Both the position numbers and the translations under genes were made by a program. The notes under the pieces were generated by a model, which was given only the letters and a program-made list of their open reading frames with translations, did no database searches and was not told the DNA's origin. Shown one piece after another: positions 924 through 36,728 of a stretch of DNA of 39,362 nucleotides. Each line of letters opens with the position of its first letter. The first letter of the stretch is position 1. The stretch is from a virus, in the IMG/VR virus record IMGVR_UViG_3300035670_000568, positions 1-39,362 of that record, one strand, 5' to 3'.

Positions 924-1095
924 ACAGTTAGAAGAACCATCAATGACCTGCCTAAAGTGTAACAGGGAATACACAGTTAGTGATAATAATCTACTGTATG
1001 GACTCTTTAGAAATGAAAGGTTAATGAGATGTGCAAAATGCTTTGAAGAAATGAAACATAAGTTCTGGCTATCGCTAATGGAACAAGGGGCTTGA
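913..1095 (+). CDS. Small zinc-ribbon protein, 60 aa
   Basis: Two Cys-x2-Cys knuckles (CLKC near residue 13 and CAKC near residue 40) are spaced as in a zinc ribbon. The ATG at 913 lies just before the previous frame ends. The stop codon TGA overlaps the -35 box of the promoter for the portal gene, so this is the last gene of the upstream unit. Tiny zinc ribbons of this kind are common in phages and may bind nucleic acid or RNA polymerase; nothing here fixes the role. Confidence 0.65.
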   Translation: MSYKQLEEPSMTCLKCNREYTVSDNNLLYGLFRNERLMRCAKCFEEMKHKFWLSLMEQGA

Positions 1096-1120
1096 CAAAT
1101 TAATTAGCACTTGATAGCAT
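1092..1120 (+). promoter_or_regulatory. Promoter for the portal/head unit
   Basis: A perfect TTGACA (1092-1097) is followed by a 17-base spacer and TAGCAT (1115-1120). The -35 box overlaps the stop codon of the zinc-ribbon gene. The box and the following AAT recur in front of two other structural genes, at 19985 and 25643, with the same spacing. Predicted start is near 1127. Confidence 0.75.
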
Positions 1121-1134
1121 TATGTTGCTAAATA

Positions 1135-1182
1135 TCCGCAAAAATAAGCGGAAATAGGCACTCGTAATTGAGTGCTTTTTTT
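1135..1182 (+). promoter_or_regulatory. Two-hairpin leader with T7 tract ending at the portal ATG (copy 1)
   Basis: Hairpin 1 pairs TCCGC (1135-1139) with GCGGA (1148-1152). The conserved octamer ATAGGCAC follows at 1154-1161. Hairpin 2 pairs GCACTC (1158-1163) with GAGTGC (1170-1175) and runs into seven Ts (1176-1182) that abut the ATG at 1183. The shape is that of an intrinsic terminator, yet it lies downstream of the promoter and upstream of the start codon. It may attenuate, may insulate from upstream transcription, or may act as a spacer bringing AGG close to the AUG. Confidence 0.7.
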
Positions 1183-3036
1183 ATGGAAGTAAAACAAGAA
1201 ATTAAGACAAGACGACAACTGGCAGAGGATTACTTATCTACTAAAAGAGATTCATGGGATAACGCAGAACAACTTTTTCATGGTCAGGTTAATGATAATG
1301 TCTCCCAAACCACCAAATCACAAGTATTTGACCCCAAGTTATCCACATTAGCGATTGAAAGGTCTTATAGAGTAATGGCCCAACTCCCAACAGGTAAAAT
1401 TAGAGGCATTTCTAAGAATGATATAGGTGGAGCCATGCTTAAAAACCTAGTTTTAGAAAAATATGTTATACCAAATGCTAATGCACAGTTTGACTTCTTA
1501 ACTAAGATGAGAATGATGGACTTATACTCCAATATCTACGGAAATATGTTCTCTTTGATAGATTGGGATGTAAAACCAAATGGATATGTAGGCCCAGACC
1601 TATGGATTTTAAATATTAGAGATGTTTTTCCACAAATCGGTGCAGTATCCTTAGAAGATTCAGATTATGTAATTACTAGAACCTGGAAACCAATTTCTTA
1701 TTTTGAAGGATTAAAAGAAAAAGATGGATTTACTAACTTAGATAAGATAATCAGGGACTTAAAAAACAAATCTGGTTCTAAACACGCAAGAAATCAGGCA
1801 ACAAGCATTTCCCAAAGAGAAAGTAATGAATATCCATATCAACAACCAGCTAAAGGTGCAGGATACTACGAAGTACTTTCAATGTTTGAAAGAGACAGAT
1901 GGGTTGATTATGTAGTAGATGCAGACGAAGTCTTCAGAGATAGAAAAAATCCACACGATGACGGAGACCTTCCAGTTAAATGCAAATATTCAATTCCACT
2001 TTTAGATGACTTTATGGGTATGTCAGACTTTGAAAGAGGAGCATCCATGCAAAAAACCATCAACTCAGCTTGGAATCTTTACTTAGATGCAGTCAAAATG
2101 TCTATTTTTCCTCCAATTTTGATAAATAAGGACAATATTGCTTCTATGAGTTCAATTTCACAAACAGCAGCAGCTAAATGGCTAGTTAGAAACCAAATCT
2201 CAAATGCTGCAACACCTTTACAGCTTTCTCCACAGGGTATTCAAACCTTTAATAATGTTTATCAGGTCGCTACAGCCTCAATTTTGAACCTATTTGGAAC
2301 AACTGAAACACAGACTACAGCACAAACAGACCCATCATTCGGAAGGACTCCACAAGCCCTAAAGATGCAAGGACAGAGAGAAAATACCAGAGATAACGCA
2401 GATAGGTTCTATATGGAGTCTTATATGGGTCAAGTAATGAAAAAGTTCTGCACGTTACTCTCAAAGAAGCAGTCTAGTGCAATTCAGATTAGAATGTTTG
2501 AGGAAGAAATTGAAGAAATAGGTAGAAGCTATCCAGATATAAATGAAAACTACAATGAAGATACTGGAAAACTCTCAATCAAGAAAGATTCAGGACTTTA
2601 TGATTATGAAGTTGTACCAGGTTCTACTTACTTAGTTGACCAACAGCAACAACAACAAAATATGGGAAATCTTCTAACACTTTTCCAGCAAGCTCAAACA
2701 CCACAGGGAAATCTTTTACAGATGAAATTAAAAGAAGAAGGTTATGATTTTAAGTTTGGTGAGTTGATGAAAAGAATAGTTAGTAATTCTGGTATTCAAG
2801 ATTGGGATAAGATATTAGTAGAGATGACTCCAGCAGAAGTTGGAGACGAAGTTTTAACAAATGATGCTAACCAGTTCCAACAGGCTATTATGCAGATGAA
2901 TAGCAATCCTAATGAAACTCCAGCGATGCCAGGTCAACCTCAACAAGGTGGAATGCCTCAACCACCTCAACAAGAACCACCTGAACAGAATCCAATGGGT
3001 GTAAGTCCAATAGGTAATACTGGATTTGTACAATAA
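1183..3036 (+). CDS. Portal protein
   Basis: A protein of about 617 residues directly after terminase, in the size range of portals of N4-gp56-capsid phages. Portals form the dodecameric ring at the packaging vertex through which DNA enters and leaves. Sequence supports this only generally: an N-terminal alpha-helical region, a central mixed domain with many aromatic residues (WILNIRDVFP, YYEVLSMFERDRW), and a Gln/Pro-rich, probably disordered C-terminus from about residue 570. A Gln run (VDQQQQQQNMG) sits near residue 490. I chose ATG 1183 rather than the in-frame TTG 1168, because the TTG lies inside the leader hairpin and 1183 gives a normal N-terminus (MEVKQEIK). There is no adjacent Shine-Dalgarno; the start is preceded by seven Ts. 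Confidence 0.82.
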   Translation: MEVKQEIKTRRQLAEDYLSTKRDSWDNAEQLFHGQVNDNVSQTTKSQVFDPKLSTLAIERSYRVMAQLPTGKIRGISKNDIGGAMLKNLVLEKYVIPNANAQFDFLTKMRMMDLYSNIYGNMFSLIDWDVKPNGYVGPDLWILNIRDVFPQIGAVSLEDSDYVITRTWKPISYFEGLKEKDGFTNLDKIIRDLKNKSGSKHARNQATSISQRESNEYPYQQPAKGAGYYEVLSMFERDRWVDYVVDADEVFRDRKNPHDDGDLPVKCKYSIPLLDDFMGMSDFERGASMQKTINSAWNLYLDAVKMSIFPPILINKDNIASMSSISQTAAAKWLVRNQISNAATPLQLSPQGIQTFNNVYQVATASILNLFGTTETQTTAQTDPSFGRTPQALKMQGQRENTRDNADRFYMESYMGQVMKKFCTLLSKKQSSAIQIRMFEEEIEEIGRSYPDINENYNEDTGKLSIKKDSGLYDYEVVPGSTYLVDQQQQQQNMGNLLTLFQQAQTPQGNLLQMKLKEEGYDFKFGELMKRIVSNSGIQDWDKILVEMTPAEVGDEVLTNDANQFQQAIMQMNSNPNETPAMPGQPQQGGMPQPPQQEPPEQNPMGVSPIGNTGFVQ

Positions 3037-7630: not shown

Positions 7631-8349
7631 AGATTATTGGACATGGTTGGGTTGGTAAGGCGATGGAGAGTTTATTTCCAGATGCAATTATTGAAGTCCA
7701 CACCAAGAAGCCCAAAGCAGACGTAGCATTTATTTGTGTACCTACTCCTTTAAAGAATGGAAGGTTGGATACATCAATCGTAGAGGAAGTAATCAAAAAC
7801 TGTGAGGAAGATTTAATCGTAGTTAGAAGTACAGTAATGCCAGGAACCTGCGACAAGCTGGGAAAGAATATTTGTTTTATGCCAGAGTATCTCGGTGAGA
7901 CAGTAGCACATCCCTTACTAGATGAGACACAAAGAAGATTCTTAATTATTGGTGGAACTCCAGAGAACAGAAGGAGAGTAATTGAGTTAATGCAGACAGT
8001 CTACAACGCAAATATCACTATCCGCCAAGTTAGCAATTACGAAGCCGAAGTGATAAAACTCTCGGAGAATAGAGCAATAGCATTCAAGGTTGCCGAGTGC
8101 CAAGAACTCTACGATGTGTGTGAAAAAGCAAATATAGATTATTACGCAATACGGGATGCCGTCTATGGAGACGACCCTCGTTTTAATCTGTGGTGGACAT
8201 TTGTCTACCCAGATAAGCGAGGTTTTAATTCTAAGTGTATCCCAAAGGATGTCTATGGCTGGGCGGCTTGGGCTGAGTCTTTGGGGTACACGCCTGATAT
8301 CACTAGAAGTATTTTAGAAAGGAATGAAAAATGGATTTATCAATCTTAA
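7621..8349 (+). CDS. UDP-sugar/GDP-mannose dehydrogenase-like protein lacking the C-terminal domain
   Basis: 242 residues. The N-terminal Rossmann signature IIGHGWVGKAM binds NAD. FICVPTPLKNG, VVRSTVMPGT and FMPEYLGE match conserved blocks of UDP-glucose/GDP-mannose dehydrogenases. The central helix (KLSENRAIAFKVAECQEL) is the domain linker. The catalytic cysteine is kept at about residue 206, in GFNSKCIPKDV. Full-length family members have roughly 400-450 residues; here the protein stops about 36 residues after the cysteine, so the UDP-binding C-terminal domain is missing. It may oxidise a different sugar, act as a reduced enzyme, or be non-catalytic. It sits between two glycosyltransferases. 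Confidence 0.8.
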   Translation: MQVKIIGHGWVGKAMESLFPDAIIEVHTKKPKADVAFICVPTPLKNGRLDTSIVEEVIKNCEEDLIVVRSTVMPGTCDKLGKNICFMPEYLGETVAHPLLDETQRRFLIIGGTPENRRRVIELMQTVYNANITIRQVSNYEAEVIKLSENRAIAFKVAECQELYDVCEKANIDYYAIRDAVYGDDPRFNLWWTFVYPDKRGFNSKCIPKDVYGWAAWAESLGYTPDITRSILERNEKWIYQS

Positions 8350-9959
8350 TCCCTGCAAGAAACGAGGAGTTCTTAGGAAAAACAATACAAAACATACTAG
8401 AAAACATAGAAGGAAAAACAGAAGTTATTGCTGTTTGTGATGGATATACAGACCCTATTCCTGAACTTCCACAAGACCCTAGAGTTAAAGTTATAGTGCT
8501 ACCTAAGTCAATCGGTCAACGAGCAGCAACTAATTTGGCTTGTAAAATGAGTACTGCTAAATATGTAATGAAGTGTGATGCCCATGTAGCTTTTGATAAA
8601 GGGTTTGATGTAAAGATGATAACCGAGATGCAGGATGATTGGACAATGGTACCAACTATGAGAAACCTACATGCTTTTGATTGGGTTTGTAGAAACGGAC
8701 ACCGAAGGTATCAGGGTCCAAGTGGTGGATGTTTAGAATGTGGCAAGTCTACTAAGAAAGAGATTCTTTGGATTGGAAAGACTAGTCCACAAAGTAATGG
8801 ATACAGGTTTGATACTGATATGCACTTTCAATATTGGCCAGAGTTAGCCAAGAGACAAGAGGGAGATATTATAGAGACTATGTCTTTACAGGGAAGTTGC
8901 TTTATGTTGACCAGAGAAAAGTATTGGGAGTTGGATATTTGTAGTGAGGAGTTCTATTCTTGGGGACAACAAGGAGTGGAAGTAGCTTGTAAGACTTGGC
9001 TTAGTGGTGGAAAAGTGATGGTTAATAAGAAGACTTGGTATGCACACATGTTCAGAACACAGGGTGGAGACTTCTCATTTCCTTATGAACAGTCTGGTAA
9101 GGAAGTAGTTGCTAATAGAGAAAAAAGCAAAGAGTTATTCAGAGACAACAAGTGGCCTAAAGCAGTTCATGACTTTCAATGGTTATTAGATAGGTTTAAT
9201 CCGCCAGGTTGGGAGAATAAAACTAAAGGAATACTCTACTACTCAGATAATAGACTAGAGCCTAAGATAATGACTAGAGTACAAGAACAGCTTAAATTAA
9301 TCGGATTACCTATAACAAGTGTAACCCTACTTCCTACTGATCTTGGAAATAACATTGTTTTACCTTTAGAAAGAAGTTATCTAACAGTAGCAAAGCAAAT
9401 CGTTACAGGGTTGGAGAGTATGAAAGAGGATATAGTTTACTTTGCAGAACATGATGTACTCTATCCAAAGGAACATTTTGATTTTGATGGTTACGAGAAT
9501 AATGTCTACTACTACAATACAAACTCTTGGTTTCTAAGAGCCAAGGATGGACATTGTCTCTATTATAATCACAGAAGCCTAAGTGGTATGAGTTGTTACA
9601 GAGAGACAGCGTTAAATCACTTTAAGGAAAGGGTAAGAAGAATTGAAGCATTAATCGCAGAAGCAGAACAAAATGGCGGTAAAGTTAGGTCTTTAAAAGA
9701 CACCTCAACATTTGTATCATTAAAAGAGGGAATCCATAGACTTGGATTTGAACCAGGTACTCATTCAAGACCAGATAGAATTGATACATTACCTGCTAAG
9801 AATTACCAATCTAGTGTTCCTACAGTTGATATTAAACATGGAAATAATCTTACACAAGCAAGGTTTAGAAAAGACCAATTTAGAAATGAAAGAAGTTATG
9901 AAGGATGGAAAGAATCTGATGAAATCCCATTTTGGGGGAAAGGTAGGGATATAATTTAA
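8331..9959 (+). CDS. Two-domain glycosyltransferase with inserted zinc knuckle, 542 aa
   Basis: The N-terminal domain is family 2-like (DLSILIPARNEE, then KCDAHVAFDKGFD with DAH at 83-85) and is paralogous to the product of 6484, sharing TWLSGGKVMVNKKTWYAH. Between them an insert carries Cys120, His124, Cys134 and Cys137 (CRNGH, CLECGK), a probable zinc-binding loop absent from the shorter paralogue. From about residue 300 a second region (GILYYSDNRLEP, IVYFAEHDVLYPKEHF) looks like another GT-A-type fold, with AEHD in the place of a metal motif. It probably makes a disaccharide step or recognises its acceptor. The start overlaps the dehydrogenase stop; the end overlaps the mucin-like tail gene by one base. 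Confidence 0.75.
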   Translation: MDLSILIPARNEEFLGKTIQNILENIEGKTEVIAVCDGYTDPIPELPQDPRVKVIVLPKSIGQRAATNLACKMSTAKYVMKCDAHVAFDKGFDVKMITEMQDDWTMVPTMRNLHAFDWVCRNGHRRYQGPSGGCLECGKSTKKEILWIGKTSPQSNGYRFDTDMHFQYWPELAKRQEGDIIETMSLQGSCFMLTREKYWELDICSEEFYSWGQQGVEVACKTWLSGGKVMVNKKTWYAHMFRTQGGDFSFPYEQSGKEVVANREKSKELFRDNKWPKAVHDFQWLLDRFNPPGWENKTKGILYYSDNRLEPKIMTRVQEQLKLIGLPITSVTLLPTDLGNNIVLPLERSYLTVAKQIVTGLESMKEDIVYFAEHDVLYPKEHFDFDGYENNVYYYNTNSWFLRAKDGHCLYYNHRSLSGMSCYRETALNHFKERVRRIEALIAEAEQNGGKVRSLKDTSTFVSLKEGIHRLGFEPGTHSRPDRIDTLPAKNYQSSVPTVDIKHGNNLTQARFRKDQFRNERSYEGWKESDEIPFWGKGRDII

Positions 9960-12900
9960 TGGCAGTATCATACGTCAACGCTTCTACTGGTGCAGCAGAC
10001 GCTGGTGGAGCTTTTACAATTACAGGAATGACCCCTGCTCAGGCTGGGAATATTATTATCCTTCAAATCTTGCAGGATGGTACTACTGATGGTGCAGTAA
10101 CTCAAACTTCTGCAACTAACATCACAGCCTTAGATGGAACAGCTAATACTTGGACAGCAATAGGCGAGTATCAGGTGGGTAATGCCGAGAGTGGTCGGCA
10201 ATACCTGTGGGTAGGGCGGTCAACAGGGACTTCTGCTCCTACATTTACAGGTGGTAACTCAACTTCTGAGGATGTGTTTGCTAGGATGTATGAGTTTTCA
10301 GGAGTGGATGCAAACGCTACAACCGTAGCTGGGATTTTAGAAAACGCAACTGCTGGAACTATTGGCAGTGCATACAACACTTCTACTACCTGTTCTGATG
10401 TTTCCGTTCAGACTACCTACGCTGGCGGTATGGCGTTAAACTTCGTTGCTCTTTCAGATGACGCTATGGGACTGGCTGTTTTCGATGGAGAAACTGGTGG
10501 AAACTGGCAACTCACCCCTGATGTTTATTCAGACAATGCTGGAACTGATGGAACTATCGCTCTGATGAGAGCTGAGATGGCTTCTGCTGGTACGATAGAT
10601 GGTGGTTCGGACACAATAACTTCTATTGGCTGGGGAGTAATAGGTTTTGCTCTTATCCCTGAACTTTCTCCTACAGTTGCTCTCTCAACTCCTAATGATA
10701 CAGCCACAGGTGTAAGCGTAACTCCTGCTCTAGTCTTTACAGGAACAGACGGTAATGGTGATGAGGTGGAATATGAGGTACAGGTGGATACGAGTAGTGG
10801 GTTTGATAGTTTAGGGAGTCCATCTGGTGTAAATACATATTATATTGATGCTTCGGATGCAGCTGCTTCAGGTCTTGCTTGGACAGATAATGCAAATGCT
10901 TTTGATGGCTCTACTAGCACTAACGCATATACAACAAATACTGGCTCAACATCTTCTAACTTTTTAAAAGCAGAAGGAACAAATGCTCCAACCGCAACTA
11001 CGCCAATTACACAGGTTAGAGCAAGGGTATATCATAGTTGTGGTGGAGGAGGAATGGACACAACAAATGTTGCAATTTATACGGATGCATTGGGTGAGTT
11101 ACTTGGAACAATATCGGCTACAACTCCATCAACTGCTGGGTGGTCTAGTTATACTACATTATCAACTCCATCTGGTGGTTGGACTTGGGCAAAAGTTCAG
11201 GCAATAGAAACAAAAATATATATAACAAATGAGGCTACACATACTCCAAGAATATACAGAGTTGATATAGAAGTTACATCTACTGGCATCCCTCTCCTCG
11301 ACATCCTCTCCTCCACCGATGATGATGCTAATTTTGAGTGGACTGTGTATCCCGACACTCATCCGTATGATAGTGGACACCCGATAACTTATACCATACC
11401 TAGTGCTAGTGAATTAGACGCTTCTACTGAATACTTTTGGAGAGTTAGAGCTATTGACCCTCTAGGAAGTAATACTTGGGGTAGCTGGGCGACTACGAGG
11501 AGTTTTACAACTCAAACTGCGGGTTCTGAATCTCCATCTGTTTCACCTTCGGTTTCACCCTCAACCAGTGCTTCAGCATCGGCTTCTTCTAGTCCCAGTC
11601 CAAGCGCTTCTCCATCTATTTCTCCATCAGCAAGTCCAAGTGTAAGTCCTAGTGTATCAGCTTCTACATCAGCGTCAGCTTCACCATCACCTTCTGCTTC
11701 TCCTAGCGCCTCACCTTCTCCATCTAGTTCACCATCTGCTAGTGAGTCTCGTAGTCCTTCAGCGTCTCCTTCTGTAAGTGCGTCAGCTAGTGCATCGGCA
11801 AGTCCTTCTCCATCAGCATCGCCAAGTAGTTCACCAAGTAGTGTTGAATCTGAATCTCCATCAGCATCTCCTAGCCCATCCGCTAGTCCCTCAACATCAG
11901 CGAGTGCTTCTGGAAGTGCATCGCCTAGTGTATCTCCATCAACTAGTGCTTCTGCTTCTGAATCTAGGTCTCCTTCATCAAGTCCGAGTCCAAGTAATTC
12001 ACCTTCTGTAAGTAGTTCAGCATCACCTAGTAGCTCTCCATCGCCTAGTGCGAGTCCTAGTACAAGCGAATCTCGTTCACCAAGTGCCTCACCATCACCA
12101 AGTGCCAGTCCATCTACTTCATCTAGTGCATCAGCTTCAGCTTCGCCATCGCCTTCGGCTAGTCCCAGTATCTCTCCTAGTGCATCTGCTTCGGCTAGTG
12201 GTTCTGCGTCTCCAAGTAGTAGCCCTTCACCGAGTGCATCGCCCAGTACAAGTTCGTCAGCGTCAGCGAGTGCAAGTCCTTCACCATCGGCCAGTCCGAG
12301 TACCAGTTCTTCGGCTTCAGCTAGTTCGTCTCCTAGCCCAAGTGCTTCTCCAAGCACGTCAGCAAGTGCGTCTAGTAGTACCAGTCCTTCAAGTAGTCCA
12401 TCATTAAGTTTTGGTAGTGAATCACCCTCTACTTCAGCTTCTACCTCACCTAGCCCTTCTGCTTCGCCATCTGTTAGTGCTAGTACAAGTGCTTCTAGCT
12501 CTCCTTCTCCTAGTGCCTCTCCCTCGGTTAGTGCAAGCACTAGTGCATCTGCTTCTCCAAGCCCAAGTAGTAGCCCAAGCGTGTCTGCTAGTAGTAGTGC
12601 TAGTACTTCTATATCAGCAAGTCCATCAAGTTCACCATCTTTGGGAACACCATTCTGGTATTTAGCTTCATCTTTAACTATAGGAAATGGTTCTATTACT
12701 TCAGGAACACTATCAGATACTTACACAGACGATGGTAATATATTAGTCTTAGGAGAAACTGGAACAGGTTTTACTTATGATTTTACATTCGGAGAGAATG
12801 ACCCAGTACCAACTCCACATGTAGATATCTATTTTAGAGCTTGGTATGATGGAAATCCTGCACACAATATAAGAATACTTCAAAAGAATTGGACATCTGG

Positions 12901-13297
12901 ATTATGGGAATACTTAACTGGAGAAACAAATGATTTTCCACAATCAGAAACAGAACAGGATTTTGAGTTTTTCTTAATAAATGGAGCTGATTATATTCAA
13001 GATGGCAAAGTACAAATAAGAATACAACATCCAACTGGTGGTTCACCATTACATCAATTTCATATTGATAGAATGTGGTTACAAACTGGTGGTGCTTCTC
13101 AATCAGTAAGTGCTTCGCCTTCTATATCGCCAAGTGCTTCGGCAAGTACATCACCAAGTCCTAGTGCCAGTCCTAGTGGAAGTATATCGGCTACGCCCTC
13201 AGCCTCACCTAGTGCAGCACAATTAGAGAAAAAGATTATACTTGTAGATGGTAAATTAGCATTGAAATTATCACATGGATTTTATATAAGTATTTAA
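9959..13297 (+). CDS. Large virion protein with mucin-like Ser/Pro/Ala tract (tail fibre or appendage)
   Basis: 1112 residues. Residues 1 to about 250 form a Thr/Ala/Gly-rich beta domain of the type found in phage and bacterial surface proteins. Residues from about 250 to 520 include a fibronectin/Ig-like part (TEYFWRVRAIDPLGSNTWGSW). Residues from about 523 to 893 are an almost uninterrupted Ser/Pro/Ala tract (SPSVSP, SASPSPSASP units). A globular beta domain (about 895-1045, SLTIGNGSITSGTL to HIDRMWLQTGG) follows, then a short second Ser/Pro tract (about 1048-1085) and a tail. Such tracts are extended and, in other systems, O-glycosylated. Flanking glycosyltransferase genes suggest it may be their target. 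No signal peptide, consistent with a virion protein. Confidence 0.7.
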   Translation: MAVSYVNASTGAADAGGAFTITGMTPAQAGNIIILQILQDGTTDGAVTQTSATNITALDGTANTWTAIGEYQVGNAESGRQYLWVGRSTGTSAPTFTGGNSTSEDVFARMYEFSGVDANATTVAGILENATAGTIGSAYNTSTTCSDVSVQTTYAGGMALNFVALSDDAMGLAVFDGETGGNWQLTPDVYSDNAGTDGTIALMRAEMASAGTIDGGSDTITSIGWGVIGFALIPELSPTVALSTPNDTATGVSVTPALVFTGTDGNGDEVEYEVQVDTSSGFDSLGSPSGVNTYYIDASDAAASGLAWTDNANAFDGSTSTNAYTTNTGSTSSNFLKAEGTNAPTATTPITQVRARVYHSCGGGGMDTTNVAIYTDALGELLGTISATTPSTAGWSSYTTLSTPSGGWTWAKVQAIETKIYITNEATHTPRIYRVDIEVTSTGIPLLDILSSTDDDANFEWTVYPDTHPYDSGHPITYTIPSASELDASTEYFWRVRAIDPLGSNTWGSWATTRSFTTQTAGSESPSVSPSVSPSTSASASASSSPSPSASPSISPSASPSVSPSVSASTSASASPSPSASPSASPSPSSSPSASESRSPSASPSVSASASASASPSPSASPSSSPSSVESESPSASPSPSASPSTSASASGSASPSVSPSTSASASESRSPSSSPSPSNSPSVSSSASPSSSPSPSASPSTSESRSPSASPSPSASPSTSSSASASASPSPSASPSISPSASASASGSASPSSSPSPSASPSTSSSASASASPSPSASPSTSSSASASSSPSPSASPSTSASASSSTSPSSSPSLSFGSESPSTSASTSPSPSASPSVSASTSASSSPSPSASPSVSASTSASASPSPSSSPSVSASSSASTSISASPSSSPSLGTPFWYLASSLTIGNGSITSGTLSDTYTDDGNILVLGETGTGFTYDFTFGENDPVPTPHVDIYFRAWYDGNPAHNIRILQKNWTSGLWEYLTGETNDFPQSETEQDFEFFLINGADYIQDGKVQIRIQHPTGGSPLHQFHIDRMWLQTGGASQSVSASPSISPSASASTSPSPSASPSGSISATPSASPSAAQLEKKIILVDGKLALKLSHGFYISI
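11527..12642 (+). repeat. Ser/Pro/Ala-coding low-complexity repeat tract
   Basis: About 1.1 kb of degenerate repeats of codons for Ser, Pro and Ala, based on the units AGT/TCT/TCA/AGC with CCA/CCT/CCC. Codons vary freely between units, so selection is on the protein, not the DNA. Long spurious frames on both strands come from this bias. Related shorter tracts lie at 13105-13217, 13800-14164 and 31255-31325. Confidence 0.9.
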
Positions 13298-13298
13298 T

Positions 13299-14228
13299 AT
13301 GTTAAGAAAAAATATTTGGTCATCAGGAGATTCTTTACCAACAATGACTGTTGATTTAAACAGTAATGCTAGTAATACTTCTTCCTTTTCTGTTGTCTCT
13401 GACTATATTCAGTCAACATTTACTTTAACTGGTGGTGGTAATCAGTATAGATATGTTGACATGTCTTCTATTACTGATTATGTAGTTCAATCTGGAGATT
13501 ATTTGGAGTATTATGTTTATTGGGAAACCGCAGGTGCAATATTACAAGCTGTAGATTTAAGATGTAGTGATGCTACTACATTGAGAGATTCTGGTATTAC
13601 AGACCAAAATAGTGTTGCTGCTCATCCAAGTACAGATATCTCTGCTAGATGTTCTGGTACCTGGTATCATAGGAAGTTTAATATCGGAGCCTGGGCTGGA
13701 AAAACAATTCAATATTATGACATAGCATCAGAGTTTGATAGTACTGGAGCAAAAATAGCTAGATTTAAGGATATTGCAATTACAGATGGAAGTGGAGCTG
13801 GTTCAGCTTCCCCATCTACAAGCCCATCATCCTCTCCCTCAGTTAGCCCTTCTGCTAGTGCTTCAAGAAGCCCAAGTGCTTCTATTAGTCCATCCGCTAG
13901 TGTATCTCGTTCTCCAAGTGCTAGTCCAAGCCCTAGTGCTAGTCCATCTGTATCTCCATCGGCATCACCATCTCCTTCTAGTAGTCCTTCGTCAAGTCCT
14001 AGTATTAGTCCTAGTGCTTCAGTTAGTCGTTCTCCTTCTACGTCATTATCTCCATCGGCTTCAATATCAAGGTCTCCATCTACGTCAATAAGTCCTTCTA
14101 CCTCACCAAGTAAGAGTCCATCGTATAGTCCTAGTGCTAGTCCGAGTGCGAGTCCTAGTCCTGCACCTACATATAGACAATATCCAAGACAAAAGTTTTA
14201 TTCAAGATATTTCAGAAGGTTTAGATAG
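13299..14228 (+). CDS. Second mucin-like virion protein, 309 aa
   Basis: Starts two bases after the previous gene. Residues 1 to about 165 form a beta-rich domain (YRYVDMSSITDYVVQSGDYLEYYVYW, IARFKDIAITDGSG) resembling a carbohydrate-binding or jelly-roll fold. Residues from about 168 to 289 are Ser/Pro/Ala repeats like those of the larger neighbour. A short basic tail (YRQYPRQKFYSRYFRRFR) ends the protein and could anchor it to another surface. Likely a tail or head appendage paired with the 1112-residue protein. The stop is followed directly by the promoter of the sugar cassette. Confidence 0.65.
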   Translation: MLRKNIWSSGDSLPTMTVDLNSNASNTSSFSVVSDYIQSTFTLTGGGNQYRYVDMSSITDYVVQSGDYLEYYVYWETAGAILQAVDLRCSDATTLRDSGITDQNSVAAHPSTDISARCSGTWYHRKFNIGAWAGKTIQYYDIASEFDSTGAKIARFKDIAITDGSGAGSASPSTSPSSSPSVSPSASASRSPSASISPSASVSRSPSASPSPSASPSVSPSASPSPSSSPSSSPSISPSASVSRSPSTSLSPSASISRSPSTSISPSTSPSKSPSYSPSASPSASPSPAPTYRQYPRQKFYSRYFRRFR

Positions 14229-14257
14229 TTGACAACTGTTTATAGTTTTGATAGGAT
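14229..14257 (+). promoter_or_regulatory. Promoter of the sugar-gene cassette
   Basis: TTGACA (14229-14234), a 17-base spacer and TAGGAT (14252-14257). The next gene starts at 14273, so the leader would be only about 9 bases and has no clear Shine-Dalgarno. Unlike the promoters at 1092, 19985 and 25643, no hairpin leader follows. Confidence 0.65.
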
Positions 14258-14272
14258 TTTATTAGGTTAGTT

Positions 14273-15037
14273 ATGGTTTATTGTACTGGTAGTACTGGTT
14301 TTATAGGCAAACATTTAGCTAAGAAATTAGATATTACTCCTATTCCTCACGACAAAATATCCTCAGTTAAATTAAAACCATTTGATTACTTTTTCTTTCT
14401 CTCATCCTATGGTAATTTAGCATCTCACTTAGACGAAGATGAGATATACGAGGCTAATGTTGCTGACTTGATGAGAATTCTTCATAAAATTAAGGGTATG
14501 AAGTTTAAATCATTTGTATTTGTATCAACTTCTTCGGTAATGTTAAAAACACAGACTACTTATTCAAGAATGAAGCGTGTAGCAGAAGAAATACTCTTGG
14601 CTTATATGGAAAGACACGATGTACCAATCTGTATAGTAAGACCTTTTAGTGTAGTTGGTGTAGGAGAGCATCCAGAACACCTAATTCCTACTTTAATTGA
14701 GGCTACCAAATCGGGTAAAACTGTTAATTTTGTCTCTAACGCTACACATGACTTTATAGACGTAGATGACTTTGTTGATGGCATGATTTCCCTGGCTAAT
14801 CATAGTGCTAGAGGAATATTTCAGTTAGGAACAGGCATTAAGACTACAAACCAGCAAGTGTTAGATTATGTGGAATCTATTTCTAGGAAAAAAGTAAAAA
14901 TTAATAGAGTTGATTCTCTAAGAAGCTATGATAATGATAATTGGGTTTCAAACAATTACAAAGCTAGGAGTTATGGATGGTTGCCAAAGAAAACACTAAG
15001 AGAAACAATAAAGGAGATGTATGATTCCTCTAAGTAA
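14273..15037 (+). CDS. NAD-dependent epimerase/dehydratase (extended SDR)
   Basis: 254 residues. The N-terminal YCTGSTGFIGKHLAKKL is the nucleotide-binding TGxxGxxG motif. SFVFVSTSSVM followed by YSRMKRVAEE supplies the Ser and the Tyr-x3-Lys of the active site. VRPFSVVG and a C-terminal substrate-binding part (GIFQLGTG) follow family order. Slightly shorter than usual (about 300). These enzymes remodel nucleotide-activated sugars by 4-epimerisation or 4,6-dehydration; the exact reaction cannot be told from sequence by eye. First gene after its own promoter and probably makes the donor sugar used by the glycosyltransferases downstream. Confidence 0.85.
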   Translation: MVYCTGSTGFIGKHLAKKLDITPIPHDKISSVKLKPFDYFFFLSSYGNLASHLDEDEIYEANVADLMRILHKIKGMKFKSFVFVSTSSVMLKTQTTYSRMKRVAEEILLAYMERHDVPICIVRPFSVVGVGEHPEHLIPTLIEATKSGKTVNFVSNATHDFIDVDDFVDGMISLANHSARGIFQLGTGIKTTNQQVLDYVESISRKKVKINRVDSLRSYDNDNWVSNNYKARSYGWLPKKTLRETIKEMYDSSK

Positions 15038-18173: not shown

Positions 18174-18922
18174 GAAAACCCTATTTAATCAGAACACCAG
18201 ATTTTGACCCAGTAAGTGGTGGGATAAGAGTAATGTATGCTCTTTATGGATGGTTATTGGCTAAGGGACAGATAGCATTCTTAAATCAAGGACTCTATAT
18301 TCCATCAGTAGGTATTTATCCTGAAATATATCATGGTAATGACATGAATGCAGATAAGGTAATAAGATGGATTCTACAAAAACCAGGAGTGATGAGTACT
18401 AATGGAATACCAGGCCCAACAGTATTTGATGAAACAGATGAAATATACGCTTTTAGTAAGGTATATGACCAATGGGGACTAGATGATGACCACATCTTAT
18501 TCTTACCAGTATTAGACTTACATACTTTTAAAGACCAGAAAAAGAAACGAACCAAGACAGCTTATTATTGTGCAAGAGGAAACAATCTACAGAAACATCC
18601 ACAAGATGCCATAGAAATAACCAGAGCATTTGCTACAGACCAACAAGCATTAGCAGACTTACTTAATGAGTGCCAAAAACTCTATATCTATGACAATATT
18701 ACAGCTATGTTAGAAGTAGCAAGATTATGCGGTTGTCCAGTAGAGTATTGGGGTAAAGATACTGAAGAAACACTTCAAAAATACGAACCTGGTGTAAATG
18801 GAATATCAACTAGCGAAGTAACTAGAGACTTTAATTCAGATGCCTTCAGAAGCCACTATATTGACCTACAACGCATTTTTAGTGAGAAACTGGATAAGTT
18901 CATTGAAAGGACACAAAAATGA
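18170..18922 (+). CDS. Putative GT-B-type glycosyltransferase, 250 aa
   Basis: The start LIRTPDFDPVSGGIRVMYAL with the GG-x-R loop resembles the first motif of WsaF/GT4-like GT-B enzymes. AYYCARGNNLQKHP and LYIYDNITAMLEVARLCGCPVEYW look like the second Rossmann half with a late Glu in the donor site. The length is short for GT-B (usually over 350 residues), so it may be a reduced enzyme. Part of the ATGA-coupled set. Confidence 0.6.
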   Translation: MRKPYLIRTPDFDPVSGGIRVMYALYGWLLAKGQIAFLNQGLYIPSVGIYPEIYHGNDMNADKVIRWILQKPGVMSTNGIPGPTVFDETDEIYAFSKVYDQWGLDDDHILFLPVLDLHTFKDQKKKRTKTAYYCARGNNLQKHPQDAIEITRAFATDQQALADLLNECQKLYIYDNITAMLEVARLCGCPVEYWGKDTEETLQKYEPGVNGISTSEVTRDFNSDAFRSHYIDLQRIFSEKLDKFIERTQK

Positions 18923-19995
18923 AGATTTATACACTTCCTAGCCACACTACAAAAGAAAAAACCACAGGTGTAGATTTCGCTAGAATGATACAACCTATGA
19001 CACATCTTAATGGATATAAAAATGTTAAATCTATAGTTTATGACCCCAAAGAAGAAGAAAAACACAACAATCCTATGGAATGGGTAAATGTTATGAAAAA
19101 TAATGATATATTCTACTTCAATTATTTAAACAATCCATGGGGATTTGCAGCTATGGGTATGATGGCTAGAAAGTTTGGTGTTAAACTGGTAATGGATTTG
19201 GATGACTCCTTGTGGGATATACATCCAGATAATCCAGCCCATGCAGTCTATAAGAAAGGTTCACCAGAATTGAAGAACTTTACAGCTATTTGTAACGAAG
19301 TTGACTATATAACCTGTACTAATGACTATTTAAAGAATGTAATCATCAACAACACGAACAAAACACCAGATAAGATAAAGGTTTTACCTAACTATATTGA
19401 CCTAAAAAGGTACAAATACACTCCTAAACCTAATGATTTTGATGAAATAGTTATTATGCACTTTGGAAGCACTACTCATTTTATGGATTTGGTAGAAACA
19501 GAGTTTGCTAGAGGCATGGAGAGGATTATGAAAGAATACCCAAATGTAGTATTTAAGACTGTAGGAGCTAATATTGCACCATTTAAGGAAAAATGGGGAG
19601 CAAAATACGAACAATTATTTGGTCATGAAGACATAAATGGTTGGATTGACACTAAGTTTGAGGGATTTATGAAAGACGCAGATATTATCGTAACACCATT
19701 AGTTGATGATATTTATAACAGATGTAAGTCAAATATTAAGTGGTTAGAGGCTTCAAGTGCTAAAAAACCAGGTGTTTGGGCAAAAATTAGACAATATGAG
19801 GAAGTTATTGACGGAACTAATGGAATATTGGCCAAAAAAGACACAGAATGGTACAAAGGAATCAAATATTTAATAGATAACAAGGATAAAAGAGACAAAA
19901 TGGGAGAAAAAGCCTACAAAGACGTACAAAAGCACCAAATACAAGACCATTTAGAAGAATATTATCAATTCTTTAAAATGATACTTGACAAATAA
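18919..19995 (+). CDS. Glycosyltransferase family 4-like (GT-B), 358 aa
   Basis: MKIYTLPSHTTKEKTTGVDFARM begins a GT-B N-domain, with KLVMDLDDSLWDIHPDNP in the middle. The second half has KVLPNYIDLKRY, the usual donor-site strand, and ADIIVTPLVDDIYNRCKSNIKWLEASSAKKP, where the conserved donor Glu is in the WLEASS helix. Family 4 enzymes transfer sugars with retention. Last gene of the cassette; its final codons overlap the -35 box of the next promoter. Confidence 0.8.
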   Translation: MKIYTLPSHTTKEKTTGVDFARMIQPMTHLNGYKNVKSIVYDPKEEEKHNNPMEWVNVMKNNDIFYFNYLNNPWGFAAMGMMARKFGVKLVMDLDDSLWDIHPDNPAHAVYKKGSPELKNFTAICNEVDYITCTNDYLKNVIINNTNKTPDKIKVLPNYIDLKRYKYTPKPNDFDEIVIMHFGSTTHFMDLVETEFARGMERIMKEYPNVVFKTVGANIAPFKEKWGAKYEQLFGHEDINGWIDTKFEGFMKDADIIVTPLVDDIYNRCKSNIKWLEASSAKKPGVWAKIRQYEEVIDGTNGILAKKDTEWYKGIKYLIDNKDKRDKMGEKAYKDVQKHQIQDHLEEYYQFFKMILDK

Positions 19996-20013
19996 TTTTG
20001 GCAGTATTATGAT
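19985..20013 (+). promoter_or_regulatory. Promoter of the internal-protein unit
   Basis: TTGACA (19985-19990), 17-base spacer, TATGAT (20008-20013). The -35 box lies inside the last codons of the glycosyltransferase gene. Same arrangement and following AAT as the promoters at 1092 and 25643. Confidence 0.78.
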
Positions 20014-20020
20014 TTAATTG

Positions 20021-20072
20021 CTAATGCTAACATTGTATTAGATAGGCACAGCTATTTATGCTGTGTTTTTTT
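20021..20072 (+). promoter_or_regulatory. Two-hairpin leader with T7 tract (copy 2)
   Basis: Hairpin 1 pairs CTAAT (20021-20025) with ATTAG (20037-20041). The octamer ATAGGCAC follows at 20042-20049. Hairpin 2 pairs CACAGC (20047-20052) with GCTGTG (20060-20065), then seven Ts (20066-20072) and ATG at 20073. An in-frame ATG at 20058 lies inside the hairpin and is unlikely to be the start. Confidence 0.7.
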
Positions 20073-21131
20073 ATGATTAATCATTCAAATTACGAAGGTA
20101 GATTCAACAATAAAAGAGTAATGTGGCTAAACCAGTTTGACGCTTTATTTAATTTAGGTAGTAATCCTACATCAGCTTCATCTGGTTCAATGACTTTTAC
20201 TCCAACTACAACAGCAGCACCAGGAGGTAATTGGACTCCTCCAATTACATCTAGTGGTGGGGATGGAGGTGGTGCTACTGGCGGTACTCAAACAACTACA
20301 AATACTGGTGGTACTTCTGGTGGTACTTCTAATCTTTCACTTAGACAACAAATGGAACAGGGCATTATTCCTTGGGATGATAATTTGCTTAATTCAGGTG
20401 AACAAACTAGTCAAAGTGATGAAGAAGCAAGATTAAGAGGAGAAATTGGTGGAGCTTGGGATGCTTATATTCAGAGTTTAGGTACCTTAGAAGGTGATAT
20501 TGTTAATTCAAAATCTGCTCAAATGAATACAGTTAATACTAATTTAGAGCATAATAACCAATTAGTTAATAATCAGAGTGCATCTTCATTAAAAGACCTT
20601 CATAATCAAATGAGAAATGCTTTTCAGGCAGGAAATACTCAGCTTGGAGCATTCGGAGCTGGAGATAGTTCAGCAGCTAATATGTATGGATACGCTATTA
20701 ATAGACAGGGTTTAAGACAAGCTGGAGATTTACAAACTCAAACTCGTAATGCTTTAATGGAAAATAAATATCAAGCTGATAATGCTTTAAATGGAATTGC
20801 TCAATGGTTTTCAGAAAAACAAATACAATTAAAGCAAATGATTGCAGAAGGTTCACTAAACAAAGCTAAAGATATAGCAGCACTTTCTAAAAGTTTCTTA
20901 GACCAAGCTATTGCACAAGCTAATGCAGTTACTCAAAATAGAACGAATAGAGAAAATGCTATTATAGAATGGGCTACAGCTAATTCTACAAATATGGCTC
21001 AATTATCTCAAAATATCTCTCAAATACCAGGAATTATAAGCCAAATAAATGGTACATTTACTACTCCAAAAGGCGGATATGTTCCAAATACTCAACAAAA
21101 AGAAAAAGAAAAAAATAGTTTATTTGGTTAA
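20073..21131 (+). CDS. Probable internal virion protein with coiled coil, about 352 aa
   Basis: The N-terminus (about residues 25-85) is rich in Ser, Thr and Gly and probably disordered. From about 105 onward it is helical with many Gln and Asn residues (QMNTVNTNLEHNNQLVNN, QAIAQANAVTQNRTNRENA), a heptad-friendly composition. It directly precedes a 1502-residue protein and shares its promoter. In podoviruses such pairs are internal core or ejection proteins; this is inference from context. ATG 20073 follows the T7 tract; ATG 20121 (MWLNQFDALF) is an alternative. Confidence 0.6.
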   Translation: MINHSNYEGRFNNKRVMWLNQFDALFNLGSNPTSASSGSMTFTPTTTAAPGGNWTPPITSSGGDGGGATGGTQTTTNTGGTSGGTSNLSLRQQMEQGIIPWDDNLLNSGEQTSQSDEEARLRGEIGGAWDAYIQSLGTLEGDIVNSKSAQMNTVNTNLEHNNQLVNNQSASSLKDLHNQMRNAFQAGNTQLGAFGAGDSSAANMYGYAINRQGLRQAGDLQTQTRNALMENKYQADNALNGIAQWFSEKQIQLKQMIAEGSLNKAKDIAALSKSFLDQAIAQANAVTQNRTNRENAIIEWATANSTNMAQLSQNISQIPGIISQINGTFTTPKGGYVPNTQQKEKEKNSLFG

Positions 21132-24100: not shown

Positions 24101-25646
24101 AGCTAAGGCTACTACTCATTATTCTGGTACTGGGAGTAAGTTTGGATTTGGCAACAAACAACCATATTATTTATTCCATGAACCAAAAACAGGAGTAACT
24201 AGAAAAGTAAGTAATGTTTTATTTAAGCCTTTACAGATAGTTGAAACTTGGAAAAATGATGTATTTGCTTCAGCAGCAGAAAGTAAAGCTAAAAGATTAG
24301 GTTTAGAGGGTAAACAGCTTTATGATTTTGTTAGAGATGAAGTATATAGATATGCTCATTTAGCAGATGAGTTTAATACACCATTATTGATGAAAAATCA
24401 CGCTTCAGCTAGATTAGCACTTCAGTATTCACAATATTTCTTAAAACATTTTGCTAGAGATTACTACGATACAATTAAGGGTGGAGAAAATAAACAAGCA
24501 GCAGCTTATTTAGCGTCAGATTTATTAGTGGCAGCAACTCTAATGACAGTAGCTGGAGTTACTTGGGATAGAGCTATTTCTGGACTATTTCCAGCAGGAT
24601 TCGGACCAATCTTTACAACAATAGGAGATTTTGTGGAACACGCACAGGGTTTACAAAAAGCAGCAGAAGAAGGTAGGAGTACTGCTTATCATCAGGAACA
24701 ACTAACTAATACAGCTATTAGAAATCTAGTTCCAGCAGGTTCTCAAATAATGAAAACTGGTGGTATGGTAAATCAATTATTACAAGGATATGAAACTTCG
24801 CCTACAGGTTTAGTTCAATATAAGGCACCAACAAATATGCTTGAAGTGGGTCAAGGATTAATATTTGGTAAAGGGGCAATTAAATCAAGTAAAGACTTCT
24901 ATAAAGATGGTGGTAAAGAGTTAGGAAAAGACCAATCTGAAGTATTTAAGGCTATATATAAAAATAATCCAGATGAAGCTATTAAGTATATGACTGATTT
25001 GAGAAGACAAGCTGCTGAAAGCAAAGCTGGTAGGGATTTATTAGAAGGTAAAGAAATCAAAGGAGATGTTAAACTAGAAGAAAAAACATATAAGATTGAT
25101 GGAACAGATTTTGAAGGATATAAAATAGGTAATAAGTTTTATTATATAGATGAGTTTGGTGAACAAACATCTAAAAGAGTTGATGTTATTGAAAAACAGC
25201 AAAGAAATGAAGAAAAAGGAATTGCTGATGCAACTTATTCGCTGGTAACAGATAGGCAAAAAAGAGAAGATGATATTGAAGGCTGGGTTGATACTACCGA
25301 AAAGTATATTGAATATTTAACCGAATACCAAAAGAAGTTAGATACAGTTAAAGAGGCTAAGGAAATAATTACTACACAAAACAAGATTGAAGATTTACAA
25401 GATAAATTAAAAACTTATAAGAGTTATGGTGGATTTAGTAAACCTAAAAAAGCTCCTAAGATAAGTATTCCCAAAATATCATTCTCTAAGCCTAAATCAA
25501 GCACAATTAAATGGAGTACACCTAAGATGAAAAAACTGTCTTTGGCTCCAACTAAAACTTATACAGTTTCTTCTGCTCCTAAAGTAAAACCATTTAAAGT
25601 TAAAAAGATGAGGGTTAAGTTTAGTTCTAGACCATTTCTTAGTTGA
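21138..25646 (+). CDS. Very large putative internal/ejection protein, 1502 aa
   Basis: Mostly helical and charged, with a hydrophobic N-terminal stretch (ASYGVLFKNIPGAVSHLF). Two candidate membrane segments lie near residues 1125-1165 (AYLASDLLVAATLMTVAG and SGLFPAGFGPIFTTIG). The block around 950-1110 (NIGLNLKTAALQGTEIFRAF, LKHFARDYYDTIKGG) resembles the large internal or polyvalent proteins of podoviruses. The C-terminal 60 residues are strongly basic with repeated SKPK/KAPK/KIS units, suited to DNA binding inside the head. A role in DNA ejection across the cell envelope is plausible, not proven. No lytic transglycosylase motif was seen. Its stop codon overlaps the next promoter. Confidence 0.6.
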   Translation: MTLKDIQSFTNNLFNQGVKSVQKAAPHIEQGIRDLPASYGVLFKNIPGAVSHLFRNPQEAADFARSTPQYSNFKLPGLQTLANFSANSGQSFGSGVKNVGGGINRIQTTDGLFNKVAGAGQIVKGISQAVTPFTPLFDAVNLGASLPQTGLPGTGKAQRLAAGLTQGIGLDDTLAPNIKRKESVRFDVLGNKIGIDPFMDAGRMVGFVKNPANQKLFQITEKVFPAGQLFEKGTSLKRWLGTTALRGSVEDIFLFMDQMPKNATNEQKLLFMSQLAVQGAASEVVGRGVLQTLGKGNRIIKNRTESVKNNKMVIDAFDALRKLSTPIYTKDPKTGKRITTRFYQVEAEKLAKKAAEKLKIDNERGAINPDLLTGGAARPLAKILDSKRFGEFDAYKDIKTRVDLENSGNVNYKQEKTYSKLDWYAKESGLAEEKIAEIADTFLGKEDKKSLTKMWKALYEALPPEKKITAPQWVKDWKEADETLTQTEPQGVPSAKLKPQDAQLTTPTAGLPQGYRYADYDEIKQNFDEYDEGVMENRLPNGKWIVDNEGTIHPLEDISKIYAKEKGGIVTQPSTPEVKVPEPQIDTSVKFSKRLPDRTTIDETNYVKTVDDTLSDFTQNELKPISDHITKNKLDKDIIRQLWDGELVTPPNKAYAKAVEMLKSANDELYEIRKGVRDLGYNPQMPRVWGTEVEDLMKFFENPYRNNPITPFLSDPHFLGKTGKGTGYITDPVEALNISAGSALREALKPLTKVQAEVKAKLDAGETVDWVDVANKSSDAPKIKIDYKLDDIAPIRTMNDIVEKTSGATKVGDTIQYKQKELFDAFRTLRDMDDIVYGLRKEVNNLIQTNQPKELIEYFIVKLGVPEANRAGFIKDSIRDINTKGIQDYAFGIMNRYTKQFPLQNFMEVLGKYEFTNGKTKQFFNDFVEEQRIKQNFETQLGEKIINALTTTFSWANIGLNLKTAALQGTEIFRAFARYNPQDVAKGIAKATTHYSGTGSKFGFGNKQPYYLFHEPKTGVTRKVSNVLFKPLQIVETWKNDVFASAAESKAKRLGLEGKQLYDFVRDEVYRYAHLADEFNTPLLMKNHASARLALQYSQYFLKHFARDYYDTIKGGENKQAAAYLASDLLVAATLMTVAGVTWDRAISGLFPAGFGPIFTTIGDFVEHAQGLQKAAEEGRSTAYHQEQLTNTAIRNLVPAGSQIMKTGGMVNQLLQGYETSPTGLVQYKAPTNMLEVGQGLIFGKGAIKSSKDFYKDGGKELGKDQSEVFKAIYKNNPDEAIKYMTDLRRQAAESKAGRDLLEGKEIKGDVKLEEKTYKIDGTDFEGYKIGNKFYYIDEFGEQTSKRVDVIEKQQRNEEKGIADATYSLVTDRQKREDDIEGWVDTTEKYIEYLTEYQKKLDTVKEAKEIITTQNKIEDLQDKLKTYKSYGGFSKPKKAPKISIPKISFSKPKSSTIKWSTPKMKKLSLAPTKTYTVSSAPKVKPFKVKKMRVKFSSRPFLS

Positions 25647-25671
25647 CAAATATGAAAAATAAGAATATGAT
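25643..25671 (+). promoter_or_regulatory. Promoter of the connector/tail unit
   Basis: TTGACA (25643-25648) overlaps the TGA stop of the large internal protein. A 17-base spacer and TATGAT (25666-25671) follow. Third member of the shared promoter-leader design. Confidence 0.8.
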
Positions 25672-25684
25672 TATATTACCAAAG

Positions 25685-25731
25685 CCCACAAGAGTGGTGG
25701 GATAGGCACAGTTTAAAGCTGTGCTTTTTTT
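25685..25731 (+). promoter_or_regulatory. Two-hairpin leader with T7 tract (copy 3)
   Basis: Hairpin 1 pairs CCCAC (25685-25689) with GTGGG (25697-25701). ATAGGCAC follows at 25702-25709. Hairpin 2 pairs GCACAG (25706-25711) with CTGTGC (25719-25724), then seven Ts (25725-25731) directly before ATG 25732. Confidence 0.72.
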
Positions 25732-26400
25732 ATGGCAGCAGTAATTACAACATTAGATGACGCAATACAGAAGTTAAACACTCTTTATAACGGGAGTACA
25801 GATGTTCCTGTTGATGGAGATGAAGATTATGAAGTGTGGAAAGACTTATTGAATGCAGCAATAAATATCTGGGAAAAAGAAGAAGGGATACTTTGGAAAC
25901 AATTATTTGTTAACGTAACTTCAGCATCTACTGGAGATAAGGCTACAGATGGCGGTAATTCTTATTCTCTACCAAGTGATTTTGTATTTCCTAATTCAGC
26001 TTATGTTTGGCTAGGAACAGGAACCACAAAATTAGCTTATAAAGTAATCAGGATTGAAGACAAGCAACTCTATGAAAATGATTCAGGAGATTGGTGTTAT
26101 TTCACAGGAACTACATTAGAGTTTAATCCCAATATAACCATAGATTCAGGCTCTACAATAAACTATTCTTATTACAAAAAGGCTACTGCACTTTCAACAT
26201 CATCAAGTACATTTGAAATGACAGACCCTATGTTTGCGGTCTATTATGCTCTATCTGAGCTTAAAAAAGAGGAAGGTGATACATCAGCTTTAACGATTGC
26301 TACTCAAAAACTAGATGCTATGAAAACCATCAATAGTATGACCTCGGAACATCAAGATAACGGATTTATAGATGTTAACACAGAGGGATTCGGGATATGA
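25732..26400 (+). CDS. Head-tail connector-like protein (tail tubular A-like?), 222 aa
   Basis: The N-terminus ITTLDDAIQKLNTLYNG and the mostly helical fold with WKDLLNAAINIWEKEEGILW resemble phage connectors and the tail tubular A group of podoviruses, which bridge portal and tail. Recognition is by pattern and context (small, before a large tail protein), without a decisive motif. The ATG directly follows the T7 tract, without an adjacent Shine-Dalgarno. The stop overlaps the next start (ATGA). Confidence 0.55.
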   Translation: MAAVITTLDDAIQKLNTLYNGSTDVPVDGDEDYEVWKDLLNAAINIWEKEEGILWKQLFVNVTSASTGDKATDGGNSYSLPSDFVFPNSAYVWLGTGTTKLAYKVIRIEDKQLYENDSGDWCYFTGTTLEFNPNITIDSGSTINYSYYKKATALSTSSSTFEMTDPMFAVYYALSELKKEEGDTSALTIATQKLDAMKTINSMTSEHQDNGFIDVNTEGFGI

Positions 26401-36038: not shown

Positions 36039-36343
36039 ATCTTCTTTAACTCTCCTTTAACTGGAGTAAGACCTATTTCTCTTAATTTGTGTTTATCACA
36101 ATGACAATCTAATTCTAATTCTGTAGGCATATCAAAGGCTTTCTTGCAACATTGTTCGCATCCGTGAGAACACGCAAAGTCTTTTCCACATCTATTTTTT
36201 TTCTTCGGCTTATTCAACCCCAACTCAATAATGATATCGTTGACCTTATCTATAATAACTCGGTCTATAATAGCTCTCTTTGAGTCTAAATCGGGATATT
36301 TGAGTTTCTCCCATTTTTCTGGTTCTATTAAATCAATTAACAT
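36035..36343 (-). CDS. Cys/His-rich zinc protein, 102 aa
   Basis: The first 45 residues are helical. RCGKDFACSHGCEQCCKKAF, then CHCDKH, gives at least seven Cys and several His suited to bind two zinc ions. Overlaps the NinG gene by 11 bases and is coupled to the zinc miniprotein after it. Likely DNA-related by neighbourhood; no family recognised. Confidence 0.6.
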   Translation of the reverse strand: MLIDLIEPEKWEKLKYPDLDSKRAIIDRVIIDKVNDIIIELGLNKPKKKNRCGKDFACSHGCEQCCKKAFDMPTELELDCHCDKHKLREIGLTPVKGELKKI

Positions 36344-36728
36344 AATCTTTTAATAACTCTTTATATTTTGTCTCTATGTCTTGATAATCTAAAATTGAAT
36401 ATTTAACTGACTGTTTACTCATAAATCTAATATTATTAAATATTTCTAATCCCATTTCTTCTTCTAGCTTTTGCGTAAAGATATCTTTATTCCCATACTT
36501 ATAGATATTACATTGAACGCATTGTGGTTTAACTACAGCCTCTAAGAATAGAACTGCGTTACTTCTTCCAGCAATTCCATGACCAGCTTGTTGTTTTTTC
36601 CAATGCTTAACTACTCCACAAGTATAGCATTTAACCATTCCATTTTTGTCTGCGTTAGATTGCCTAATATATCTACTAAACTCTGTCCAAGCTCTTTTTT
36701 TGTAATAAGATAATGTTTTAGTTTTCAT
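36333..36728 (-). CDS. ninG: NinG/Rap-like recombination nuclease, 131 aa
   Basis: KKRAWTEFSRYIRQSNAD, CYTCGVVKHWKKQQAGHGIAG, and KPQCVQCNIYKYGN with a C-terminal helix follow the order of phage lambda NinG (Rap), a zinc-bearing endonuclease that cuts D-loops and Holliday junctions in recombination. The length is a little below the lambda protein because an N-terminal part is missing. Starts within the previous gene's end and is part of the minus-strand early operon. Confidence 0.82.
   Translation of the reverse strand: MKTKTLSYYKKRAWTEFSRYIRQSNADKNGMVKCYTCGVVKHWKKQQAGHGIAGRSNAVLFLEAVVKPQCVQCNIYKYGNKDIFTQKLEEEMGLEIFNNIRFMSKQSVKYSILDYQDIETKYKELLKDYVN

Follow-up and report, generated by a model that had tools for sequence, protein, structure and literature searches.

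Phage antitermination has been learned from a few lambda-like systems. In the lambda Q, AlpA, and GafZ systems, a promoter is followed by a downstream terminator and by late or lysis genes, with expression gated at the level of read-through; AlpA and GafZ bind between the −10 and −35 elements and pass the downstream terminator. HK022 putL is among RNAs of about 70 nt that contain two stem-loops, and is located just after its promoter. Here, we describe from sequence an arrangement that resembles both, in a group of little-studied bacterial viruses in which several blocks of virion genes have a predicted stop signal after the promoter and ahead of their first gene. The analysis starts from a 39,362-base virus record (IMGVR_UViG_3300035670_000568), the whole of which is referred to as the window.

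The window contains three copies of one module, at 1092–1185, 19985–20075, and 25643–25734, all on the plus strand. In all three copies, the predicted elements occur in the same order: a promoter, TTGACA-N17-TANNAT; a small hairpin (hairpin 1); a strong putative intrinsic terminator (hairpin 2) with a run of seven T residues (T7); and ATG. This confirms for every copy the plan that an earlier note on this DNA had described. Specifically, copy 1 comprises a promoter at 1092–1120 (TTGACA at 1092–1097, 17 bases, and TAGCAT at 1115–1120), hairpin 1 at 1135–1152 (TCCGC, an 8-base loop, and GCGGA; portal class, 8-nt loop), and the terminator at 1156–1182 (including T7 at 1176–1182); copy 2 comprises a promoter at 19985–20013 (TTGACA, 17 bases, and TATGAT), hairpin 1 at 20021–20041 (CTAATGC, a 7-base loop, and GTATTAG), and the terminator at 20044–20072 (including T7 at 20066–20072); and copy 3 comprises a promoter at 25643–25671 (TTGACA, 17 bases, and TATGAT), hairpin 1 at 25685–25701 (CCCAC, loop AAGAGTG, and GTGGG; adaptor class), and the terminator at 25704–25731 (including T7 at 25725–25731). 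A promoter scan recovers the 17-base spacing that had been reported for each copy, with scores of 10/12 at 1092, 11/12 at 19985, and 11/12 at 25643. The −10 sequence given before, TATNNT, holds for copies 2 and 3 and is corrected to TAGCAT for copy 1. The placement of a terminator between promoter and gene, also claimed before, is supported by these predicted elements.

The modules stand out within the window. By a stricter terminator definition applied to both strands of the 39 kb, the only three terminators are those of the three modules; a looser scan returns 17 terminator-like sites, approximately the shuffled number. TTGACAAAT has exactly three mismatch-free occurrences, all inside modules; ATAGGCAC has five occurrences, three of them within modules (0.99 expected); and T7-ATG has four, three of them within modules (0.41 expected; four reached in 0 of 100 shuffles).

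Copy 1 precedes the portal gene (1183–3036, plus strand, 617 aa), copy 2 precedes a gene of 352 aa from this ATG (20073–21131, plus strand), and copy 3 precedes the adaptor gene (25732–26400, plus strand, 222 aa). The names proposed for the first and third genes, portal and connector, are supported. In particular, the portal protein, which has no Pfam or PHROG match, gives a predicted structure (mean pLDDT 70.5) for which the SU10, N4, and Pan3 portals top the structure matches, and the connector matches PF24175 (SU10_adaptor, E 1.6e-08). The second gene, called an internal protein, has homologs in 16 of 17 IMG/VR records and likewise no Pfam or PHROG match by which to name it. A further unit, the gene at 14273, has a promoter at 14229–14257 (plus strand, TTGACA-N17-TAGGAT), with no hairpins or terminator in the window; the promoter stops 15 bases before the gene, which would yield an almost leaderless transcript. 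Other features of the window include glycosyltransferase genes among the virion genes (8331–9959 and 18919–19995), two consecutive ORFs with long coding repeats of the Ser/Pro/Ala type (9959–14228, where the GC skew is reversed), and a NinG/Rap-like endonuclease gene on the minus strand (36333–36728, PF05766).

Related genomes carry the module, contrary to the outcome that the earlier note had named as refuting it, absence from all relatives. Searches of viral contigs returned 12 loci for the portal and 75 loci for the major capsid protein (MCP), and a portal match was present in 73 sequences, from which 52 distinct upstream regions were examined (one, L055, being a fragment without a start). 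Promoter, hairpin, terminator, and start are present in most of these, and portal leaders of the same plan reach relatives with 32–43% amino-acid identity. Automatic parsing was unsuccessful for L060, L074, L076, L033, L096, and L081; some of these misses are due to the scan window or the −10 rule (L033 and L081 pass under a relaxed −10 rule), and in L073, a close relative of L074, the module lies further upstream. Some automatically parsed promoters are plainly wrong (e.g. L052, L106, L114, and L120). A strict adaptor-class pattern matched two viral contigs, both already in the sample, and a broad ATAGGCAC-T7-ATG pattern matched 44 stretches, mostly unrelated. In a phage collection, the portal search gave no match, and the MCP search gave 47 distant records, all below 60% identity. 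The 11 MCP loci found in genome contigs fall in unlike MAGs and so indicate no one host.

The module is restricted to the starts of a few gene families. In a table of the 17 records, a terminator is present at the portal start in 15 of 17, with a promoter too in 14, located 50–76 nt before the terminator; for the two exceptions, G006 and G013, other scans reveal a terminator-like site close to the start. The adaptor gene has a terminator in 10 of 14 cases (8 with promoter); the family of window position 20058 in 4 of 16 (all 4 with promoter); the family of 14273 in 4 of 15 (3 with promoter); the family of 28452 in 2 of 15 (1 with promoter); and the family of 15021 in 1 of 17 (0 with promoter). 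The remaining 26 of the 32 conserved families have no gene-start terminator in this table. For the 14273 gene, homologs in G004, G008, and G014 have both terminator and promoter, and several relatives, by eye, have the promoter without the terminator.

The distance between promoter and terminator is constrained. The relatives contain 148 distinct strong terminators, 80 of which are followed within 25 nt by an ORF of 90 aa or more; these 80 stand before 47 portals, 8 adaptors, 7 members of a 258-aa family, 4 members of the window 20073 family, and 2 members of the 28452 family, and they also take in eight cases from distant contigs of Oscillospiraceae and a few isolated ones that are not modules. 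A promoter scoring at least 10/12 is present 54–70 nt before the end of the T run for 42 of the 80; the corresponding counts are 7 of 68 for the other terminators and 27 of 5,100 for random positions. Across 56 non-redundant modules, the promoter-to-T-run distance has a median of 62.5 and a range of 56–74, the admission limits being 54–75. The T run is seven in 35 of the 56 (range 5–12), and the start codon directly follows it in 26 (distance 0–23). Exactly seven Ts followed by ATG, as had been claimed, is therefore true of the three window copies, and in relatives is common and not essential; ATAGGCAC, proposed as an invariant part, is mostly confined to the window phage and its nearest relatives. 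Both are local details, not invariants.

Hairpin 1 is conserved as a fold. Three sub-classes can be distinguished by eye: an adaptor type, UCUUUACC, with loop ARGARUG; a portal type with a UNUAAU loop; and a portal type with an 8-nt loop. The earlier claim that hairpin 1 keeps its place while its sequence varies holds in that the hairpin recurs, with the amendment that it differs by class and not by sequence alone. The mean folding z-score is −1.67 for 47 portal leaders (20 of 47 at or below the 5% level) and −0.81 for 8 adaptor leaders (1 of 8). Among the 56 non-redundant leaders, which were not selected for a hairpin, 14 have p≤0.05 and the Fisher combined p is 4.5e-13, an optimistic value given that the leaders share ancestry; some leaders have little or no hairpin 1 (p>0.5 in 4 of 56). 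Stem changes on both sides outnumber changes on one side by 14:0, 13:1, and 18:2 in the three classes, in alignments whose rows were selected by eye, a choice that favours pairing (for the adaptor class, the window, three further loci, and 8 of 19 distinct upstream regions; for the two portal alignments, 12 and 11 leaders); the covariation score was reached by 0 of 500 shuffles. The fold is thus kept while the stem changes by compensatory pairs, and these changes, together with the 56-leader test, uphold the proposal of selection on hairpin structure.

Covariance-model searches provide a fairer test than rows picked by eye. A scan of 989,800 bases with the adaptor-class model returned 17 hits at E<0.1, comprising 12 training rows and five others: L199:5752, L189:2891, L133:10930 (minus strand), L173:478, and L148:1793 (minus strand). 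All five are followed by a terminator and three have a clear promoter; L173:478 and L148:1793 were already known as modules, the other three are new, and the hits in L199 and L189 stand before homologs of window gene 28452. None of five inspected hits among the 12 with E≥0.2 is a module. The UNUAAU model gave 15 hits with E<0.2, comprising 11 training rows and four others, all four before terminators (two, L089 and L098, are identical in sequence).

The module has a recurrent anatomy and a fixed geometry, is conserved across a deep clade, carries a covarying, class-specific hairpin 1, and is restricted to a few genes. We propose, with a probability of about one half, that it is a gated late leader, in which read-through is licensed by antitermination, most likely loaded through the nascent hairpin 1 in a put- or nut-like manner. 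Specifically, we infer that a late (virion) transcription unit begins at each module, where the host sigma-70-type polymerase would initiate and make a leader about 55 nt long; this RNA would fold hairpin 1 first and then the strong intrinsic terminator, and most transcripts in vivo should end just before the gene. In the late phase, polymerase would become resistant to termination, and regulated read-through into the virion operons, those of portal and adaptor among them, would follow. Hairpin 1 is the most likely loading place, with a phage factor bound to it (nut-like) or with the RNA acting directly on polymerase (put-like). The window gene at 14273, with its promoter and no terminator, counts against the gate, as do the leaders with little or no hairpin 1 and the negative searches for an antitermination factor given below.

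An alternative is an unregulated attenuator or insulator, in which the terminator would stop upstream read-through and a fixed leak would set virion-protein ratios with no dedicated factor. The location of modules at unit boundaries, the small number of other strong terminators in these genomes, and the result of the factor searches are consistent with it: NusG (PF02357), Phage_antitermQ (PF06530), and Antiterm (PF03589) have 0 matches in the 17 records, which may be fragments, and no antiterminator is present in the best 25 of 211 and best 25 of 60 families (PHROG/Pfam) matched by 111 of the 232 accessory proteins. We nevertheless consider it unlikely, as it leaves unexplained both the fixed distance of the terminator downstream of the promoter and a covarying hairpin 1 with class-specific loops.

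The gated leader could instead be loaded through DNA, in the manner of lambda and phage 21 Q, AlpA, and GafZ, by a phage factor that sits on promoter DNA, engages polymerase while it is paused, and takes it through the terminator. The order of promoter, terminator, and late genes is the same, as predicted here, and AlpA and GafZ act at a promoter with a downstream terminator. In addition, an inverted repeat, TRGCA-N14-16-TGCTA, spans the −10 element in 7 of 56 promoters and in none of 200 shuffles; it points to DNA-level control in these seven, which counts against an RNA-loaded gate, and for this reason a DNA operator may account for part of the conserved 5′ sequence in this subset. Repeats of the form TTRGCA-N15-TGCTAA, about two helical turns apart, are located at window 1092–1133 and 19985–20028, and the same −10-spanning repeat is present in L048, L049, L050, L058, L116, and L123; the geometry resembles that of the CIRCE operator. 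Against loading at DNA, no motif was seen to be shared by the promoter spacers across the clade, two promoters of one genome resemble each other no more than promoters of different genomes do (9 pairs), the conserved part is an RNA hairpin before the terminator, and neither Q family (PF06530, PF03589) matches any of the 17 records, although Q proteins diverge. The arrangement also differs from the Q-type systems in having several modules per genome. Overall, we regard a Q-type mechanism as quite improbable. By comparison, in L087 the portal and 258-aa-gene leaders carry an identical hairpin 1, and in L111 the two hairpins agree in the loop and differ in the stem by a compensatory pair; because hairpin 1 is shared within these genomes while promoter spacers are not more alike, this small sample favours recognition at the RNA.

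The described RNA-loaded systems are similar in part. As in these leaders, the HK022 put RNA has two stem-loops in its first tens of nucleotides; put RNA acts in cis without a protein and is not known to end in a terminator, whereas here the second stem is a predicted intrinsic terminator and the downstream genes encode virion proteins. In adaptor-class leaders, a 5-bp hairpin comes after UCUUUA, a succession that may correspond to boxA and boxB of lambda nut. UCUUUA matches the boxA core; the loop AAGARUG is not known as a boxB loop. Unlike nut, portal-class leaders lack UCUUUA, and no N-like peptide is named among the best 25 PHROG/Pfam families of the accessory proteins; N-like peptides are short and diverged. 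In greA/GraL, a short leader is likewise ended by a terminator close to the promoter, but the gene is a host housekeeping gene and the locus is single. A classical attenuator or riboswitch with an alternative antiterminator fold does not describe these leaders as a general rule: the terminator stem has a pairing probability above 0.9 in 53 of 56 leaders, and no competing antiterminator fold recurs generally; in 7 of 56, five or more nucleotides of the arm are sequestered, at a dG of −6 or below, ahead of synthesis of the 3′ arm. Rfam has no family matching the window at E 1 and no leader family in five 20-kb stretches of relatives, where the only match is a group I intron (L167, 17445–17636; relative G012). 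Within the literature collection and the search terms used, no title or abstract describes such a leader. By analogy, the arrangement appears to work like the Q-type and put systems, and we assign it to none of the established ones.

Two further alternatives concern the transcript itself. The hairpins could guard the 5′ end of the mRNA or place the ribosome at a start that lacks a Shine-Dalgarno (SD) sequence. This agrees with the absence of an SD 4-mer in the two of three window modules scored, compared with its presence in 13 of 27 operon-internal window genes, but SD use is low in these genomes anyway (91 of 285 operon-internal genes), the spacing before the start codon ranges between 0 and 23, and all the sequence features that mark an intrinsic terminator are present in hairpin 2, which together make this reading very unlikely. 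Least probable of all, the units could be small-RNA genes, with a promoter, an RNA of about 55 nt, and a terminator as all the parts of such a gene, making trans-acting RNAs beside virion genes by chance; their positions follow the starts of a few families of virion genes, and their sequence outside hairpin 1 varies. Three local candidates were also rejected: an AGG before hairpin 2 that hairpin 2 would bring near the start as an SD sequence (absent in many relatives, and a better fit to the base of the terminator stem); a leader peptide initiated within the loop of the adaptor class (its reading frames are not conserved, by inspection); and a −10-like pause element, UAUAAU, in the loop (many relatives have UCUAAU, which lacks A at position 2).

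Returning to the gated late leader, we suggest, more tentatively than for the gate itself, that these elements form a new family of nascent-RNA antitermination elements, in which class-specific hairpins immediately ahead of an intrinsic terminator would load or act on the host polymerase, and one RNA-recognised gate would serve to turn on the separate virion operons throughout a clade of podovirus-like phages. The leaders would predict transcription-unit borders in uncultured phages. If the proposal is true, antitermination logic of this kind has also emerged or spread on the basis of a different recognition element, with a promoter, hairpin, and terminator for each of several virion operons, and the leaders would supply compact, portable transcription gates.
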